Shown: positions 3,618-64,000 of the stretch, one piece after another
Position numbering within the stretch: position 1 is the stretch's first letter
Layout of the letters: every line of letters begins with the position of its first letter
Source: Candidatus Baldrarchaeum yapensis
GTDB taxonomy: Archaea > Asgardarchaeota > Baldrarchaeia > Baldrarchaeales > Baldrarchaeaceae
DNA: 64,000 nucleotides
Direction: 5' to 3'
Assembly: GCA_016840465.1 (NCBI GenBank)
Contig: JAEOSH010000006.1
Span: forward strand, 1 to 64,000
Position numbers and translations under genes: made by a program
The notes under the pieces: generated by a model
What the model was told of the DNA's origin: nothing
Database searches by the model: none
What the model saw: the letters and a program-made list of their open reading frames with translations, nothing else

Positions 3618-5501
3618 TCACATAAAATGTTTCACTGCGATCATACGAATGAGATCACCCGCCTCCTCAGCCATGTCCGCACTCATCTCCATAGATTCAA
3701 CGAACTCCCACACCATCAAGTACTCTGATATTTTCATAACGTCGCTCAGGATTCTCATTTTCCTCAAAAGAGAATGATGGAGGTCGTCAAGGTTCCGCTC
3801 AGTTTCTTCGATATCTTTCACAATATCAAGGGTGACCTCTGGGTTTTCCCTTAGCGCTATAAAGGCATCTCTGACGAGCCTGCATATCCTCCTCACGCCA
3901 CTGGCGAAACTTACGAAATCCTCCTTTATTTCGGGAGGTACAGCGTATGGATCTACAAGGGTAAGTCTTCTGCTTCCCCCTATCAGGTATCCGGCAATTC
4001 TATCTACAACATCGGTTAGATTAACGAAGTCGCCGCGGTCTGGTGGCTCCAAAACGCTCTCAGACAGCCTTCTCATGATTTCTCTCTTTATCATATCGGC
4101 AGTTTCCTCCATTTTCTTTGCGGAGGCAATTTCTTCAATCATAGAATGCATATCGCATTGGGCAAAGAACGTAACCGCGGACTCCACTTTCTCAGCGACC
4201 TTCTCCACTGTGAGGATGTGATTCACCGATAGGGAAAAGGTTGGCCACCCAGGCCTCGTCTCTTTAACTCTCAATGAGAAGGCAATCATTCCCACAATTA
4301 AAGATACGGATATCAGTAAAAGGCTCGCCCTAAATCCAGCGGGGTCGTAAATTCCCCAGAAATCTATCAGGAATCCGAGTATTAATGGTCCCAATAACCA
4401 TCCCATATCTCTAAATGACCTATATAGGCCGAGAGCTGCACCCCGGTAGTGAGGTGCAGCGACATCCATCGAAATTACGGGCAACACAGGGTAATAGAGC
4501 CCCATTCCTAGTCCCGTACTCACAACTGCAATGAGAACAAACGGAAGGCTCGGTGGCGAGAATGCTACGGCTATTAGAGAAATGGCATTAATCAGAAGCC
4601 CTAACATACATGGGATCTTTCTACCAATCGCATCTGCAATCTTTCCACCAATGGGCATCATTAATGCCCATGCAAGTGTCAAACTCCCCGCTACGATCCC
4701 TATCTCAAAAAGTGATAGACCTAAGAAATTGTGAAGAAAAATAGGTAAGAATGCCCACATGAACCCGTCTCCGAACTTTGCAAGATGTCCGATTGCATAT
4801 ACTGTCATCAACCTTCTATTTTTTAGTATTCTGGACGAGAATGAGGCGATCTGCGATCTTCTTGAGTGCCCTCCGAAGCCCCTCGTTTCCCTCATAGTGA
4901 GCGAGACAACAAGAAAAAATAGAGACGTTATCGCTGCGAAGTATAATGCAACTCTTATTGAGAACTGTTGCGAAATAAAGCCGGCAGATATGGCCCCTAT
5001 TCCTAACCCTATATACACCGAGAACTCCATTTTCCCTATTGACTCTCCTTTTTCCTCCGTCCCAGCAATGTCTCCTAATGCGGTCATTGCAGCCACAAGA
5101 GACATTCCAGCACCAGTTCCCAAAAGTATACTTCCGAATAAGAGCTGAAAATAGGATGTAGAAACCGCGATAACAAAAGATCCGATCGCTGAAAGCAAAC
5201 TTCCAATAACAAACACACTCTTTCTTCCCATAAAATCTGTTAAAATCCCACTAGGCAGTCCAATAATTGCTTCAAATGCTGCAAATAGTGCTATTATAAT
5301 CCCTATTTGGAGTCCTATGGATACGAATTCACTGGCGTATATTGAAAGTATCGCGCGCTGGACACCTATCGCTATTCCCAAGAGGAAAATGGCAAGGAAT
5401 ATCAGGGCGGATGTGACAGCGAGGGGTTTGTAGAACTTTTCTCTTGATCTATTAACATCATAAACAGACGTTTTATTGTCGTAAACCACAAAAACCACCA
5501 T
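3618..5501 (-). CDS. MFS transporter fused to a PhoU/DUF47-like domain
   Basis: Residues about 25-420 are a complete 12-segment major facilitator: a GRKS loop after helix 2 (DFMGRKS) and a second half beginning near 235 with the cognate loop DAIGRKIP. From about residue 430 the protein continues as a soluble alpha-helical domain of about 200 residues. Its features (KKMEETADMIKREIMRRL, PDRGDFVNLTDVVDRI, long heptad-like helices) are those of PhoU-like/DUF47 proteins, which in many prokaryotes sit beside phosphate transporters. The fusion suggests that transport is gated or sensed through the tail, perhaps with an inorganic anion as substrate. That role is inferred. An MFS carrier alone would be about 400 residues, so the tail is a true addition. 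Domain family confidence is good; substrate is unknown. Confidence 0.82.
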   Translation of the reverse strand: MVVFVVYDNKTSVYDVNRSREKFYKPLAVTSALIFLAIFLLGIAIGVQRAILSIYASEFVSIGLQIGIIIALFAAFEAIIGLPSGILTDFMGRKSVFVIGSLLSAIGSFVIAVSTSYFQLLFGSILLGTGAGMSLVAAMTALGDIAGTEEKGESIGKMEFSVYIGLGIGAISAGFISQQFSIRVALYFAAITSLFFLVVSLTMRETRGFGGHSRRSQIASFSSRILKNRRLMTVYAIGHLAKFGDGFMWAFLPIFLHNFLGLSLFEIGIVAGSLTLAWALMMPIGGKIADAIGRKIPCMLGLLINAISLIAVAFSPPSLPFVLIAVVSTGLGMGLYYPVLPVISMDVAAPHYRGAALGLYRSFRDMGWLLGPLILGFLIDFWGIYDPAGFRASLLLISVSLIVGMIAFSLRVKETRPGWPTFSLSVNHILTVEKVAEKVESAVTFFAQCDMHSMIEEIASAKKMEETADMIKREIMRRLSESVLEPPDRGDFVNLTDVVDRIAGYLIGGSRRLTLVDPYAVPPEIKEDFVSFASGVRRICRLVRDAFIALRENPEVTLDIVKDIEETERNLDDLHHSLLRKMRILSDVMKISEYLMVWEFVESMEMSADMAEEAGDLIRMIAVKHFM

Positions 5502-5651
5502 GTTTTCATACGGTGTCTAATACTGTTTCTACATCTACAGACGTTAAGAAATACTCTTCGGCTATAAATGGATAATTAAATAGTCGCTCGGTTAGATGGT
5601 GTGAAATTATCTGTACCTTATACAAGGTTACTAGATACCTCTACATTTCCG

Positions 5652-6946: not shown

Positions 6947-9900
6947 TTAGGAAAACTTATCCTCTAATAATGCCTCAATTTCTTGGTATCTCTTCCTCAA
7001 TTTCTCTATTGTTTCACTTGATGCTCTCCAATAACCCCTTGAATGAGCCTCTAATAATCTTCCGACTATCTTCTGAAACGCCCACGGATTTTCCCTCTTT
7101 ATCCTGTCGGAAACTTCTCGATCAAAGACTATTCTCTCGGCAACCTTATCCCACATCCAGTCCTGAACGCCACCTACCGTCGCTGCAAGTCCCAGTAGGT
7201 ATTCCACCCTATCTGCAATCTTTGTTGACCCATTAAAGCCATGTTTGAGCATTTCATCTAGCCAACGCGGATTTAGAAGCCGCGTGGCTACGCCCCTCCT
7301 TATTGCCTCGTCGACATGCTCAACTTTCACTCTTTCTCTCGTACTATCCGCAACTAGAACTAGGGGTTTCTCACCTCTTACCTTCTCAACGCTCTTCGTC
7401 AATCCGCCTAAGAACTCATAATAGTGGTCGAGGTCGGTAATTTCGTAATCGATGCTGTCTCGAATCTGCGCAACTAGGTCCACTCTAGAGATAAGTTTAT
7501 TGAAAACATCATTTGCGTCTTTCCCTCTGATGTATTCCCCGTACCCGAATCTCATACTTTCCATATATGCATTCACAAGATCCGCCTCGCTCCTCCAAGA
7601 CCCGCTTTCAATGAGTGTGGTCAGCGTAGTTGCATATTCGCCCTCAGGTGGGCCGAATATCCTAATTATCGCATCCTCTCCCAATTTCTTATCCTCGAGC
7701 GTGTGGGCCTTTACGTAATTTAACTCCGGAGGCTCATCCAAGCTTGCAACTAATTTGAACGCTCTATCAAGAAGTTCAACTATGTTGTAAAACGTGTCCC
7801 TGAAAATTCCACAAATGGTGACAAGAACGTCTATTCGAGGTCTTCCCAATTCCTCTAATGGTATTACTTCCAAGTCACGGATGTATATCGACTTCCAGAT
7901 AGGCCTCACTCCCAATAACCTGAAAATGGCGGCAACGGTCTCCCCTCCCGTCTTCATTGTCTCAAAGCCCCAAAGCACAACACTAACAACCTTAGGATAA
8001 CGGCCATACTTCTCATAATACCTCCTAATGTACTCCTCCGCAATTCGCGCACCGCGCTCCATTGCCACTTCCGTTGGTATATTCGTGGGGTCAAGCTGGA
8101 ATACATTGCGCCCGGTTGGAAAGACCTCAGGCGATCGTATAGGATCCCCACCGGGTCCCGGAAGGATGTATTCTCCATTTAATGCGCGCAGTACGCCTTC
8201 AATTTCAGATGACTCTAATACTCTTTCCTTTACTGATTTGGCGTACTCCAATGATGTCCTCATCTCGTTTTTATCGACTCTTCCAAGTTTAAAACTCTTA
8301 ATGAGATCGTTTAACGATCTCTGCTCAAAGACGTACATCTTGATAATGTTACGAACGACTTTTTCGATAGCATCCAAAATGTCAGAATATCTCCTTCCAT
8401 CAGGTGTCATCAGAGAGGGCTTTTCAAGCAAATCATAGTAATTAAAGCCCATGGACTCAGCAATTATCCTATGGAGGCTCTTAATGGTCCCTCTATCGTA
8501 TCTTGCAACATAAGTCAGATAATCCAAGAGATCGTCCTCGGAAGGCGTCTCGCCAAGCACATGTAGTCCTTTCGGCACCAATGCTCTTTTATACTCGTAA
8601 ATTCTGTCATGAATTTTGTCAATGCTATCTCCTAAACCGTATTTTCTTCCCACATCGATGATCTTTTTCGCAATCGTTGCAGCCTTCTCCTTATCGTATT
8701 GTAATGTGTCATGATATTGGTTAAGAAGCCTTTCCAGTTCCAAAATGAAATCATGAGAGCCACTCACCATAACTGGAGGACTACTATGTCCTATAATGAC
8801 CGCATAACTCCTATGCTTTGCAATGGCAGCCTCCGACGAATTGACGACATGGTAGATGTAAATGTTCGGTAGGTCCCCTAGTAGCAAATCCGGAAAACAC
8901 TCTTCAGATAGCCCTGCATCCTTCCCCGGCAAAAACTCTAAGGTCCCATGAGTGCCGAAATGTACGACCGCATCTGCTCGAAACTCCTTCTCTAACCATT
9001 TATAAAACGCAATATACTGATGATGCGGCGGCAGATCTCGACTGTGGTATATTTTTGAGGGGTCCTCGTGTACACCTCTCGAAGGTTGTACTCCTATGAA
9101 CACATTTCCTAAAATGATCCCCGGAATTATTATCGTGTCTTGGAACACCATTATCTTACCTGGAGGCTCTCCCCATGCCTCTAGAACTCTTTTTCGTACA
9201 TTCTCGGGCAATTCATTAAACCACTTTATGTATTTTTGCTTATCCACTTTAGGCAATCTTCGGAGCGCATCAGCTGTCTGGACCCATTCTCCGGAATTTA
9301 CTGCTCCGCTTCTCAACATCAACTCCTTTAATTCGTCTGCACTTGGAATCTTATCAATAAAGTACCCATGCTCTCTCATCGAAGAGAGCAGTTTGGATAT
9401 GCTGGCAAACACGTCGAGATATGCAACCTTTCCGAGGTTTTCCTCGCCGGGCGGATAATTGAATATTATTATGGCAATTTTCTTATCCTTGTTCGGCTTT
9501 CTCTTTAAGTGAACCCATTTTAGAACTCTTCGTGCCAATTTCCTAATTCTGTCCTCTATTGCTATGTACTCCTCAAGAACAACTCCCTCCTTCTTAAAAT
9601 GAACGGGAGCATGTGTAACATGTGGTTCTATTCGCCCATCCAATTCGGGCAAAATTACCGACGTTACCATCTCTATTGGAGGAACCCCTGCGCGGGACTC
9701 TTTCCATTTCTCTGCAGTTACCGATGATAAATGAATCCCGTGAAGAACGGGCACATTCAACTTTGTCAGCACATCAAATGTAAATCTGTGATCCCCACCT
9801 ACAGGGCCTCCCGCGAACCTGAACCAAAGCAGATCAACTAAAGCATCGATAACGGGTCTGCCATTTCTCAGAAAGTACTTCTCGATCGCAAGATAATACC

Positions 9901-10711
9901 TCAGATCCTCACAAAAGACTGGTATTACTCCAAGTCCAAGGCGCTCAATCTCCTCGGCGAGGAGCTTAGCGGCGGGTAGAGATTGATCATAGTGGTGCCC
10001 TCCATAAAACAATATCCCGACAAGAGGTCTATTCCCATGTCTGTACTGCTTGAGGTACTCTTCTGTTGAATCGTATATTTGGCCAGTGTGGAAGTCCTCT
10101 ATCCCCATAGGCGGCATAACTTTTGGCTCCGGTATCTCAACATCTATCTTCACTTTGCCATACTCCTTTAACAATAACAGCAGCATCGCAACGTAGTTTT
10201 CTTCTGAGGGATGCTCATGGCACTTCAATACAAATGCGAAGTTTCGAGCATGCCTAAAGATACCTATAGGAATCTTAGAACCTAATTTCTCAAACCTCTC
10301 CCTCATTTTAACTATTTTGCCGTAATCTATCTCTCCTCTTCCGAATATTTTCCTGAGAATGGGCTTTTCTCGTAAAGACATAAACCTGTCGAGAGAAAAA
10401 CTTCCCATCCTAGTCAATCTTATCAGCTCAGGCGAGCCACCAACTAGAGTTATTATCGTTTTGTCTTTGGAATTTTTCAATGTTTCAACTAGCAATTTGC
10501 TGGTCCTATCTCCGCCTCTAACGTCAATTAACACTATATCGGCGGATAGCAACTCGTTGACCACCTTATCAGAAGAAAACGCCCCAGTCTCGATATCATA
10601 TGCGTTGAAGAACGAAAAGTCCAGTTTTCCACCAGTTATTTTATTAACTTTTTTAACGGCTTCCAAAAGCGCGGGCCGAAACTGATACCCTATCATCACA
10701 ACCTTTACCAT
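6947..10711 (-). CDS. cobN: CobN-type cobaltochelatase / magnesium-chelatase large subunit
   Basis: The 1254-residue protein has the full length of the CobN/ChlH family, the large subunit that binds the tetrapyrrole and inserts Co or Mg with ATP supplied by an AAA+ partner. Family features include GILFYGGHHYDQSLPAA near residue 230, the central GVQPSRGVHEDPSKIYHS and HFGTHGTLEFLPGKDAGLS blocks, a VVLWGFETMKTGGE segment, and a C-terminal VGGVQDWMWDKV. The partner AAA+/VWA protein is encoded divergently, 93 bases away. An ECF S component lies downstream. These point to cobalamin or another metallo-tetrapyrrole such as a reduced-porphyrin cofactor; metal specificity cannot be read from sequence by eye. 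The ATG start has GGTG 10 bases upstream. Confidence 0.93.
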   Translation of the reverse strand: MVKVVMIGYQFRPALLEAVKKVNKITGGKLDFSFFNAYDIETGAFSSDKVVNELLSADIVLIDVRGGDRTSKLLVETLKNSKDKTIITLVGGSPELIRLTRMGSFSLDRFMSLREKPILRKIFGRGEIDYGKIVKMRERFEKLGSKIPIGIFRHARNFAFVLKCHEHPSEENYVAMLLLLLKEYGKVKIDVEIPEPKVMPPMGIEDFHTGQIYDSTEEYLKQYRHGNRPLVGILFYGGHHYDQSLPAAKLLAEEIERLGLGVIPVFCEDLRYYLAIEKYFLRNGRPVIDALVDLLWFRFAGGPVGGDHRFTFDVLTKLNVPVLHGIHLSSVTAEKWKESRAGVPPIEMVTSVILPELDGRIEPHVTHAPVHFKKEGVVLEEYIAIEDRIRKLARRVLKWVHLKRKPNKDKKIAIIIFNYPPGEENLGKVAYLDVFASISKLLSSMREHGYFIDKIPSADELKELMLRSGAVNSGEWVQTADALRRLPKVDKQKYIKWFNELPENVRKRVLEAWGEPPGKIMVFQDTIIIPGIILGNVFIGVQPSRGVHEDPSKIYHSRDLPPHHQYIAFYKWLEKEFRADAVVHFGTHGTLEFLPGKDAGLSEECFPDLLLGDLPNIYIYHVVNSSEAAIAKHRSYAVIIGHSSPPVMVSGSHDFILELERLLNQYHDTLQYDKEKAATIAKKIIDVGRKYGLGDSIDKIHDRIYEYKRALVPKGLHVLGETPSEDDLLDYLTYVARYDRGTIKSLHRIIAESMGFNYYDLLEKPSLMTPDGRRYSDILDAIEKVVRNIIKMYVFEQRSLNDLIKSFKLGRVDKNEMRTSLEYAKSVKERVLESSEIEGVLRALNGEYILPGPGGDPIRSPEVFPTGRNVFQLDPTNIPTEVAMERGARIAEEYIRRYYEKYGRYPKVVSVVLWGFETMKTGGETVAAIFRLLGVRPIWKSIYIRDLEVIPLEELGRPRIDVLVTICGIFRDTFYNIVELLDRAFKLVASLDEPPELNYVKAHTLEDKKLGEDAIIRIFGPPEGEYATTLTTLIESGSWRSEADLVNAYMESMRFGYGEYIRGKDANDVFNKLISRVDLVAQIRDSIDYEITDLDHYYEFLGGLTKSVEKVRGEKPLVLVADSTRERVKVEHVDEAIRRGVATRLLNPRWLDEMLKHGFNGSTKIADRVEYLLGLAATVGGVQDWMWDKVAERIVFDREVSDRIKRENPWAFQKIVGRLLEAHSRGYWRASSETIEKLRKRYQEIEALLEDKFS

Positions 10712-40125: not shown

Positions 40126-40169
40126 ATTTCATAAACTCATAAGTTTATAAACTTATGAGTTTATGAAAT
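40126..40169. repeat. 44-base perfect palindrome before an archaeal ATPase gene
   Basis: The sequence is self-complementary over 44 bases with no spacer (centre between 40147 and 40148). Each half contains the 10-mer ACTCATAAGT or its complement ACTTATGAGT. It ends 14 bases before the TTG start at 40184. A second, similar element precedes the related ATPase gene at 63360. Confidence 0.9.
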
Positions 40170-40183
40170 CTTGGTGTTAAACG

Positions 40184-41770
40184 TTGTCCTACCTGTTACC
40201 AGTGACGGGCGAGGACTTCTTCGATCGGGAGCGAGAACTGGAGATCTTGGAAAGTGGGAAGAATATAGCACTTATAGGACCTAGAAAGTCGGGAAAGACA
40301 TCTATAATATTTGAATTTGTACGAAGACATCCCGAGAAGAGAATTGCTTACGTGTATGTTCTTTTCCAGGAAGACATCAATAGCTTAATTTCAAGAATGG
40401 CAAGATCGGTGCTAATGGTAATACTAAGAGTAAGGGATGAAGTGCCGGCGCTTGATGATCTGATATCCGCAGCTATGGACAAGGTGCCGGAAATATCGGC
40501 TCTCCTATATAATCTTATGCGACATATCAGGAAGCAAAGACATGAGGAGGCTCTCGAGGCATTAGCTAATGTTTGCGAGAAAACCGGAACCGTAATCGCC
40601 ATAGATGAGTTTCAGAACGTTTTTCAATTAGAGAAGTTCGTAGATATTCTGCGCATGATCTTACTCAAGTATAGAAAGGTACAATGGATAATAACTGGAT
40701 CCAGCATAGGAATCATGAAGGAACTGCTCATGGAACCATCATCTCCCCTTTTTGGGCACTTTGAGGTCGTATGGGTCGGCGCATTTGATATGCCCACGGC
40801 TTCAGAGTTTCTGGAGTTCTTACTAAGGCGTACCCAATTTTCGATGCCACCCGATGTGAAACAATACATTCTTGCAATTTCAGGAGGCTTCCCATTCTAC
40901 ATCTCAATCATTGTCTCAAAGTCCGTAGAGAAAGCCAAAACCAAACGAAAAGGGAAAATAGTCCCTTGGAGCGATGTCATGGAAACCTTAGAGGAAGAAT
41001 TGTGCCATCCGGAGGGCACTCTGTACAGGCATTTTATAGAAACTCTAGAGAAGGGTATGAAACGAAGAAATGTGGGGAAATATATAGACGTACTTTACTG
41101 GATCGCAAAAGGAGCGTCAGATTTAACGACCATATCCAAAAACACAGGATTCAGCCCGCAGCACTGTCTGAAAATACTCAGATTTCTCGAAAAAAGCATG
41201 TTAATAGAGAGAGTGGGGGATAGTTACTTTCTGAAGGACCCTCTCATGGACATATGGCTCAAGAGAATATATGAGTTGATGAGCCGAGAATACTCCCCGG
41301 TAAGGGACTTTACACAAATAAAACTGATGTTAAAAGAGTATTTGGACGAATTGAGAAAGCAGATTTCGATAGGTGCGGAGGCAAGGATCAGAGAATTGCT
41401 TAGAGCATTCGATGGAAGAAGGAAGATACCAATAGCTGGAGAAATTGTAAGGACCCCAACATTTCAAATGGTGTCGAGGATTACATGGAATGGTAATGAA
41501 ATAGATGTTCTCGCAATCGGGTCCGAGGTGTGGGTTTTAGAAGTAAAAACCGGGTCTGTGAAATATGAAGATCTGAAAACCTTCGCTAGGAAAATAGATG
41601 ACGCGATAAAATCCGGAGTTATTAAGCGTGTTGACAGAAGAATACTCGCATGCCTCGGTGATATTAAAGAGAATCTGGTAACAGAAGCAGATAAGCTCGG
41701 TATCAAGATTTGGAGAAAAGAGGAGATTAACAAAGCCATGCGGATTTTCGGTTATTATCCATTCCTGTAA
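40184..41770 (+). CDS. archaeal STAND-type ATPase with a C-terminal nuclease-like domain
   Basis: A 528-residue protein of the archaeal ATPase (PF01637-like) group: Walker A GPRKSGKTS near 30, Walker B VIAIDEFQNV, and sensor ITGSSIGIM. A winged helix follows near 310-350. The C-terminal part (EIDVLAIGSEVWVLEVKTGSVKY) has D...ExK spacing like the PD-(D/E)XK fold of DUF234 proteins. Such genes are multiplied in many archaeal genomes, and their role is not known; mobile or defence functions have been suggested. The TTG start follows an in-frame stop 4 bases upstream, and a long palindrome ends 14 bases before it. Confidence 0.82.
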   Translation: MSYLLPVTGEDFFDRERELEILESGKNIALIGPRKSGKTSIIFEFVRRHPEKRIAYVYVLFQEDINSLISRMARSVLMVILRVRDEVPALDDLISAAMDKVPEISALLYNLMRHIRKQRHEEALEALANVCEKTGTVIAIDEFQNVFQLEKFVDILRMILLKYRKVQWIITGSSIGIMKELLMEPSSPLFGHFEVVWVGAFDMPTASEFLEFLLRRTQFSMPPDVKQYILAISGGFPFYISIIVSKSVEKAKTKRKGKIVPWSDVMETLEEELCHPEGTLYRHFIETLEKGMKRRNVGKYIDVLYWIAKGASDLTTISKNTGFSPQHCLKILRFLEKSMLIERVGDSYFLKDPLMDIWLKRIYELMSREYSPVRDFTQIKLMLKEYLDELRKQISIGAEARIRELLRAFDGRRKIPIAGEIVRTPTFQMVSRITWNGNEIDVLAIGSEVWVLEVKTGSVKYEDLKTFARKIDDAIKSGVIKRVDRRILACLGDIKENLVTEADKLGIKIWRKEEINKAMRIFGYYPFL

Positions 41771-63298: not shown

Positions 63299-63350
63299 TT
63301 ATCTACTTATGAGTAGTCTACTATAAAGTAGACTACTCATAAGTAGATAA
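63299..63350. repeat. long inverted repeat before the second archaeal ATPase gene
   Basis: Two arms of 24 bases (63299-63322 and 63327-63350) are exact reverse complements, with a four-base loop (ATAA). Each arm contains ACTTATGAGT or its complement ACTCATAAGT, the same core as in the palindrome at 40126-40169. It ends 9 bases before the ATG at 63360. Confidence 0.9.
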
Positions 63351-63359
63351 GGGGATGAC

Positions 63360-64000
63360 ATGCAGAATCACGCTTTTATCAATAGAGAGAAGGAACTCTC
63401 CGTTCTGCATGAGCGGTTTAAAACATCCCGTGCTGAGCTCATAGTGGTGTACGGAAGAAGACGCGTGGGGAAGACCACAATACTAAAGGAGTTCCTGAAA
63501 AGAGTAGGTGGAGTGTATTTCCTCGGCAGACAAGAATCGGAATTAGATCAGTTGCGCAGGTTTTCCTCGATACTTGCAAGATACTTCGGAGACAAGTTCT
63601 TAGAAAAGAGTCCATTTACGAACTGGGATGGACTTTTTGAGTACCTTGCCAGCAAGGCTGAGAATCAACGAGTAGTGGTGATATTCGATGAGTTTCCGTA
63701 TATGGTTTCTAGTTGCCCTAAACTGCCATCAATATTGCAGGACTTCTGGGATAACAGATTATCATATACGAAGATCTTCATAGTACTTTGCGGCTCCAGC
63801 ATCGGAATGATGGAGGAGATAATCGGTGGTAAAAGCCCACTTTACGGTAGAAGAACCGGACAACTACGTATAGGTCCCCTTAAATTCTCTGATGTCCGGA
63901 AGTTTTTTCCTAAGTACACATTTAGAGACCAAATAACTGTATATGCCGTTTTGGGCGGGACTCCCGCATATCTCGTCCAATTTGATACTCAAAAGAATAT
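63360..64000 (+). CDS. archaeal STAND-type ATPase (DUF234 group), cut by the window end
   Basis: The ATG at 63360 follows GGGGATGAC and opens a frame of 213 codons that is still open at 64000. It has the family start INREKELSVL, Walker A GRRRVGKTT, Walker B VVVIFDEFPYMV, sensor LCGSSIGMM, and GPLKFSDVRKFFP, typical for the DUF234-linked group. The C-terminal nuclease-like part lies beyond the window. It is related to, but clearly different from, the ATPase at 40184. It has the same upstream palindrome type. Confidence 0.88.
   Translation, partial: MQNHAFINREKELSVLHERFKTSRAELIVVYGRRRVGKTTILKEFLKRVGGVYFLGRQESELDQLRRFSSILARYFGDKFLEKSPFTNWDGLFEYLASKAENQRVVVIFDEFPYMVSSCPKLPSILQDFWDNRLSYTKIFIVLCGSSIGMMEEIIGGKSPLYGRRTGQLRIGPLKFSDVRKFFPKYTFRDQITVYAVLGGTPAYLVQFDTQKN

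Follow-up and report, generated by a model that had tools for sequence, protein, structure and literature searches.

The 44-nt perfect palindrome directly upstream of an ATPase gene of Candidatus Baldrarchaeum yapensis is very probably a gene-specific operator through which the encoded AAA+ winged-helix ATPase regulates its own gene, as comparison of sequences suggests. The dyad array overlaps the core promoter of the putative regulator, and its sequence co-evolves with the encoded DNA-binding domain. The gene belongs to the "archaeal ATPases" (PF01637 ATPase_2 and PF03008 DUF234), a family with multiplied copies in numerous archaea and with members in many bacteria, whose role is an old open question. 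An operator bound by the encoded ATPase was among the possibilities raised in the preliminary description of the window (the whole stretch of 64,000 nucleotides analyzed here). Such binding, predicted from sequence, is strongly supported by the promoter-embedded position of the array, its occurrence at one place of the genome, and covariation with the recognition helix. The features of the window are as follows.

40126-40169, no strand: 44-nt perfect palindrome, putative operator array of the ATPase gene starting at 40184 (sequence analysis).
40126-40131, no strand: outer arm ATTTCA, pairing with TGAAAT at 40164-40169 (sequence).
40132-40147, no strand: dyad 1, TAAACT-CATA-AGTTTA, half-sites 6-4-6 (sequence).
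40144-40151, plus strand: TTTATAAA, TATA-box-like, at the palindrome centre, presumed promoter element (sequence and inference).
40148-40163, no strand: dyad 2, TAAACT-TATG-AGTTTA, 16 bp after dyad 1 (sequence).
40164-40169, no strand: outer arm TGAAAT (sequence).
40173-40176, plus strand: GGTG, putatively Shine-Dalgarno-like, between the palindrome and TTG (sequence and inference).
40184-41770, plus strand: ATPase gene P0001, 528 aa, TTG start, with PF01637 ATPase_2 (residues 12-240), a winged helix and a PD-(D/E)XK-like C-terminus (profile match, sequence, structure model).
41156-41194, plus strand: recognition helix of the P0001 winged helix, residues 325-337, in which K330 is the equivalent of position 277 (model helix, alignment).
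63299-63350, no strand: 52-nt near-perfect palindrome with one mismatched pair, putative operator array of the second ATPase gene (sequence).
63303-63316, no strand: dyad CTACT-TATG-AGTAG (sequence).
63318-63331, no strand: dyad CTACT-ATAA-AGTAG, with a TATA-like centre (sequence).
63333-63346, no strand: dyad CTACT-CATA-AGTAG (sequence).
63360-64000, plus strand: second ATPase gene (L001 protein), 473 aa, running past the window, with PF01637, a winged helix and DUF234; recognition helix 272-284 with K277 (profiles, model).

As described beforehand, the palindrome at 40126-40169 has no spacer: its arms of 22+22 nt are paired throughout, and 14 nt lie between its end and the TTG at 40184. The span of 40126-40184 that had been noted for it contains the palindrome but ends too far downstream, as it also covers the intervening bases and the initial T of the TTG. 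That such a structure is very unlikely by chance was confirmed, as base composition predicts ∼5e-9 perfect zero-spacer arms of 22 nt per window and ∼2e-7 per genome. The palindrome is composite, with two tandem 16-bp dyads (TAAACTn4AGTTTA) enclosed by the outer arms ATTTCA and TGAAAT, and the TTTATAAA at its centre resembles an archaeal TATA box and may act as one. In the genome of 2.27 Mb, the exact dyad sequence was found solely at these two places; sites with one mismatch were few and no more frequent than those of the reversed control pattern.

The product of the adjacent gene, P0001, matches PF01637 with 59.8 bits (cut-off 33.2) and contains the Walker A and B motifs GPRKSGKT and IAIDEF. 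Its PD-(D/E)XK-like motif (EIDVLA at 439, EVK at 453) lies in a confident part of a structure model that is moderate as a whole (pLDDT 72.5). DUF234 (PF03008) was not matched by P0001 at E ≤ 1e-3, whereas the L001-L004 proteins of the same genome do match it. Homologues of P0001 are distant, with most matches at 22-33% identity and the few higher ones restricted to short stretches. Because close relatives are lacking, the evidence for the 16-bp array variant of P0001 comes from its own sequence and from analogy.

The array upstream of the second ATPase gene, at 63299-63350, consists of three tandem CTACTn4AGTAG dyads with a period of 15 bp. The core ACTCATAAGT/ACTTATGAGT of the first palindrome is found again at 63305-63344, before this PF01637 gene starting at 63360. 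The recurrence of the core motif 23 kb away therefore holds as originally noted, but not as that of a copied element, since what recurs is the shared half-site xxACT plus the spacer CATA/TATG. Elsewhere in the genome, no copy of the tandem array at 63303 was found with up to three mismatches allowed. A three-dyad array with similar spacers (TATG, TATA, CATA) and other half-sites (ATAAA) is present at L041, in a genome of the same order. The L001 protein matches PF01637 with 117.9 bits (cut-off 33.2). Its AlphaFold model is confident (pLDDT 92) and comprises an AAA+ domain, a winged helix (244-309; recognition helix 272-284) and a mixed alpha/beta domain with an EID...E.K motif. The best structural matches were PABY2304 (2QEN) and SSO1545 (2FNA), both solved members of PF01637/DUF234, and ORC/Cdc6 proteins. 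Among viral contigs, no relative of L001 was found.

Palindromes were surveyed in 702 kb (about 680 ORFs) of the 2.27-Mb genome. The five strongest short-loop palindromes, which include all with a score of at least 14, each lie just before a PF01637 gene; the sixth-ranked one precedes a transposase and was set apart as a different thing. The genome has 22 matches to the PF01637 profile, several of the weak ones being Cdc6-like or fragments. With the tandem dyads modelled freely, 9/13 full-length members (L001-L013) beat all of their own shuffles, and L008 has a 34-nt palindrome farther upstream; for L002, no array was seen with this model. Copies of the ATPase gene without palindromes had been named as evidence against a common element, and the result is that most PF01637 copies in this genome do have arrays. 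The array sequences vary from gene to gene (CTACT, TAAACT, AGTCATA-ggggg-TATGACT with a 20-bp period, ACTTT, TACACCA, and others). On contig C89, a perfect 31-nt palindrome (L095:8317-8347) is retained over the start of a PF01637 gene that is split into two ORFs (8326-8706 and 8946-10280).

Comparable arrays were found across the family. The sample comprised 80 DUF234-type relatives from bacterial and archaeal genomes and was extended by paralogues from the genomes of eleven relatives, by Thermococcales and Lachnospiraceae, and by relatives from the phylum of the window. Among 127 non-redundant long members, 40% had a direct repeat at lag 15 (at least 11 of 14 matches) in the upstream region, versus 1.1% of dinucleotide shuffles (the number of shuffles per sequence or column was modest, 3-80); lag 16 reached 8.7%, and all remaining lags from 8 to 25 at most 4.7%. 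The fitted structure H5-n4-H5'-n1-H5-n4-H5' scored at least 18 of 20 in 51/127 long members versus 0.08% of shuffles. A further 44/66 Thermococcales genes had the array, and none of the shuffles did. Overall, 99/212 long PF01637/DUF234 members passed the strict threshold, about half of the long homologues falling below it. On the same contigs, a score of at least 18 of 20 was obtained for 37/78 DUF234 genes, 4/256 neighboring genes and 1/75 downstream regions (Fisher p=6e-23). Equally long palindromes before unrelated genes had been named as contrary evidence; arrays are almost never seen there, and at least two of the four array-positive neighbors appear to share the array through divergent transcription. 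Scoring for a single palindrome understates the arrays (23-27/78 homologues pass), and the tandem-dyad structure with its 15-bp period is needed to recognize them. Variation of the spacer within a dyad has no discriminating power, because all registers score at period 15; the period itself does discriminate.

Shorter members (at most 430 aa, with AAA+ and winged helix only) have a different array design, with a period of 19-20 and often a G-run spacer. In a set of nuclease-less short ATPases (L268, L269, L274, L279, L282, L283, L292, and L005 and L006 of the window's own genome), half-sites of 5-7 bp, a G-run spacer and a 17-20 bp period were observed. At least 12 PF01637 paralogues starting with FFDREKEK or FFNREREK, several of them in tandem, are encoded in an Altarchaeum genome (G234, e.g., L294-L297). 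No array was apparent in the FFDREKEK group, and these paralogues apparently form a subfamily that lacks or has lost the operator array. An orthologous DUF234 group (L002, L023, L066, L072, L074) is likewise devoid of a dyad array and shows a conserved GGTGTC immediately preceding the start codon.

The half-site letters of 115 arrays were compared with every protein column over 49 clusters, which were cut at 60% identity, so that shared ancestry partly remains and was addressed by a tree test. For half-site base 4 (C or A), K277 ranked first, T281 third and Y278 fourth of 424 columns, all of them within the predicted recognition helix (272-284). The same test gave no clear pointer to the recognition helix for half-site positions 1-3. 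Arrays of the type xxACT pair with GKYLxVL, those of the type xxAAT with TPYLRNL or SVYLKNL. Over the 49 clusters, the counts for C4 versus K277 were 20/1 versus 4/24 (p=7e-9). On a tree built without the winged-helix domain, base 4 and residue 277 changed jointly seven times, each time on one and the same branch and with matching direction; no column had more such changes (p=5e-6). Residue 277 is Lys (55) or Arg (2) in 57/57 strong C-type arrays; the exceptions to the code are five strong A-type arrays with Lys at 277. A basic side chain is expected to contact the guanine opposite C. P0001 fits the code with half-site AAACT and K330, its recognition helix (model helix 325-337) carrying CLKILRFLEKSMLIER, where the equivalence of K330 and K277 was obtained by realignment by hand on LxxL..IxR. 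By these comparisons, the predicted DNA-reading helix of the encoded protein is evolving together with the array in its own promoter.

The arrays also keep to the promoter. In archaea, a TATA-like TTAAATA is located just upstream of the array, and the median distance from array end to start codon is 4 nt. In bacteria, the arrays lie over -35/-10 and the corresponding median is 28 nt. Of the bacterial regions, 71% had a sigma70 promoter (score of at least 9.5), compared with 7% of shuffles, and the -10 box tended to share register with the repeats (offsets -1, 11, and 26). With +1 taken as about 6 nt after -10, 16/34 bacterial arrays are located entirely upstream of the predicted start of transcription. 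The different distances to the start codon, together with the promoter match, indicate that the array tracks the promoter and not the ribosome site. Mismatches within the arms were G-T in 16 and A-C in 12 cases (p=0.57), i.e., a preference for wobble pairs is absent. Promoter placement and the lack of a G-U bias favor a DNA operator over an RNA hairpin. In several Thermococcales loci (L304-L309, L325, L331, L397), the second dyad very often has GGTG as its spacer. This GGTG could double as a Shine-Dalgarno sequence, and operator and ribosome site would then share bases.

The most satisfactory explanation is that the protein acts on its own promoter. The product would consist of an ORC/SSO1545-like AAA+ ATPase, a winged helix that binds DNA and, in this case, a PD-(D/E)XK-like nuclease domain. 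Winged-helix dimers would read short half-sites (TAAACT at the window palindrome, CTACT at 63303) in the dyads that follow one another across the core promoter. Two or three neighboring dyads would be occupied, probably cooperatively, which would cover the TATA box and the start site, so that transcription of the own gene would most likely be repressed. Autorepression is probably the direction of control, judging from where the array lies. With a half-site of its own for each paralogue, cross-regulation among paralogues would not be required. What we infer from the sequences is the binding itself, its cooperativity, a repressing and not an activating effect, and any influence of ATP or a ligand. 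A regulon was considered and rejected, as the window operators have no exact tandem-array copies elsewhere in the genome.

The same binding evidence would also serve an operator read for activation or switchable control by a ligand-activated, STAND- or IniR-like ATPase, and not for simple autorepression. In mycobacteria, IniR, which has an SSO1545-like AAA+ domain, binds to a promoter and activates it (PMC5760070), and ATP-driven switching between states is possible for AAA+ ATPases. However, arrays over the TATA box and start site, or over -35/-10, occupy the usual place of a repressor and not of an activator, and activation seems unlikely, if worth keeping in mind. It is conceivable, though doubtful, that the array is an operator and an assembly platform at once, each paralogue being a self-repressed, nuclease-bearing defense switch. 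ORC-like AAA+ subunits would assemble on the tandem 15-16 bp dyads at their own promoter and thereby restrain the nuclease-bearing ATPase, and invading nucleic acid or a nucleotide change would lead to release and derepression. If this were true, the many paralogues would be insulated, self-repressed defense switches, each with its own DNA address. The hairpin envisaged earlier, which would form in the leader RNA and block ribosome entry or be bound by the protein in translational autoregulation, is very improbable. Archaeal arrays, including that of the window, lie a short way before the start codon, and part of each would enter the transcript, and a 44-nt palindrome is expected to fold strongly as RNA. 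Yet neither zero-loop dyads nor tandem periodicity are needed by an RNA, and the position of the bacterial arrays, often upstream of +1 and far from the start codon, the absent G-U preference of the arm mismatches and the covariation with the recognition helix all argue against it.

The idea that the palindrome is a site at which the nuclease domain cleaves or inserts, as part of a selfish or homing-like element, has likewise been weakened to a very slim chance. DUF234/PD-(D/E)XK domains do occur in many long members, paralogues are numerous, and relatives figure in PADLOC among the candidate anti-phage defense proteins (PDC-S27). Nevertheless, nuclease-less PF01637 members of 350-380 aa have arrays that are equally clear, as seen for L005, L006 and L011 and for paralogues of Thermococcus and Pyrodictiaceae, which places the array with the AAA+/winged-helix part of the protein. 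Moreover, the dyad is absent elsewhere in the genome, the arrays coincide with promoters, and a matching repeat is absent downstream of the genes. A transposon or selfish element was rejected as well, a partner repeat at the other gene end being present in 1/75 downstream regions. Of the "selfish or regulatory system" suggested at the outset, the regulatory half is supported by the promoter-embedded operator array, whereas no sign of selfishness was found. The tandem repeats also recall iterons, and the fold resembles ORC/Cdc6 and SSO1545, as might be expected if an ORC/Cdc6-like protein used the array in replication or partition. Such an origin-like function can hardly be credited, because each genome has many chromosomal paralogues, their array sequences differ, and the array is always in the promoter of the own gene.

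Autoregulation through such an array has a counterpart in AbiEi, a self-regulating antitoxin/repressor with an operator of multiple inverted repeats (PMC7319586). Tandem inverted repeats in the own promoter, presumably bound cooperatively, are common to both. Unlike in AbiEi-type systems, the DNA-binding domain of PF01637 proteins is on one polypeptide with an AAA+ ATPase and often a nuclease, and the operator keeps its 15-bp period across two domains of life while its sequence varies between paralogues. IniR shares an SSO1545-like AAA+ domain in a promoter-binding regulator (binding being predicted from sequence here) but differs in activating another operon, in its MalT-like sensor and SdiA-like DNA-binding domain, and in lacking a PD-(D/E)XK domain (PMC5760070). 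ORC1/Cdc6 initiators, whose fold matches, also have an AAA+ domain followed by a winged helix for repeated DNA sites, but their sites are origins and not their own promoters, and a nuclease domain is absent. The PADLOC model PDC-S27 is matched by the DUF234-type L001-L004 (E 1e-28 to 2e-58) and weakly by P0001 (2.9e-5), PDC models being candidates. That PF01637/DUF234 ATPases are self-repressed candidate defense genes is a reasonable guess. In the literature searched, which included few subscription papers, there was no report of an operator or regulatory role for the PF01637/DUF234 family. A family-wide operator in the own promoter, with a residue-to-base code of the winged helix, would give the family its first defined, predicted DNA ligand, which is directly testable by biochemistry. 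It would also provide a case from nature in which numerous self-regulating paralogues of a single cell appear to be diverging in DNA specificity.

Three further repeats in the genome concern other genes. A GC-rich 33-nt palindrome with one mismatch (L102:14205-14237; contig C12:78205-78237) directly precedes a transposase-like ORF that is truncated where the contig ends, and is probably an insertion-sequence terminus. A 22-nt palindrome, GAACATGTACATGTACATGTTC (L116:2027-2048, contig C50), sits immediately ahead of an AbrB-like ORF, after which comes a PIN-like ORF; the palindrome looks like the operator of an antitoxin-toxin pair. Finally, a 26-nt inverted repeat (L105:3017-3042, contig C68) separates two chloride-channel-like genes that are closely related and divergently oriented (957-2780 on the minus strand and 3643-5502 on the plus strand).
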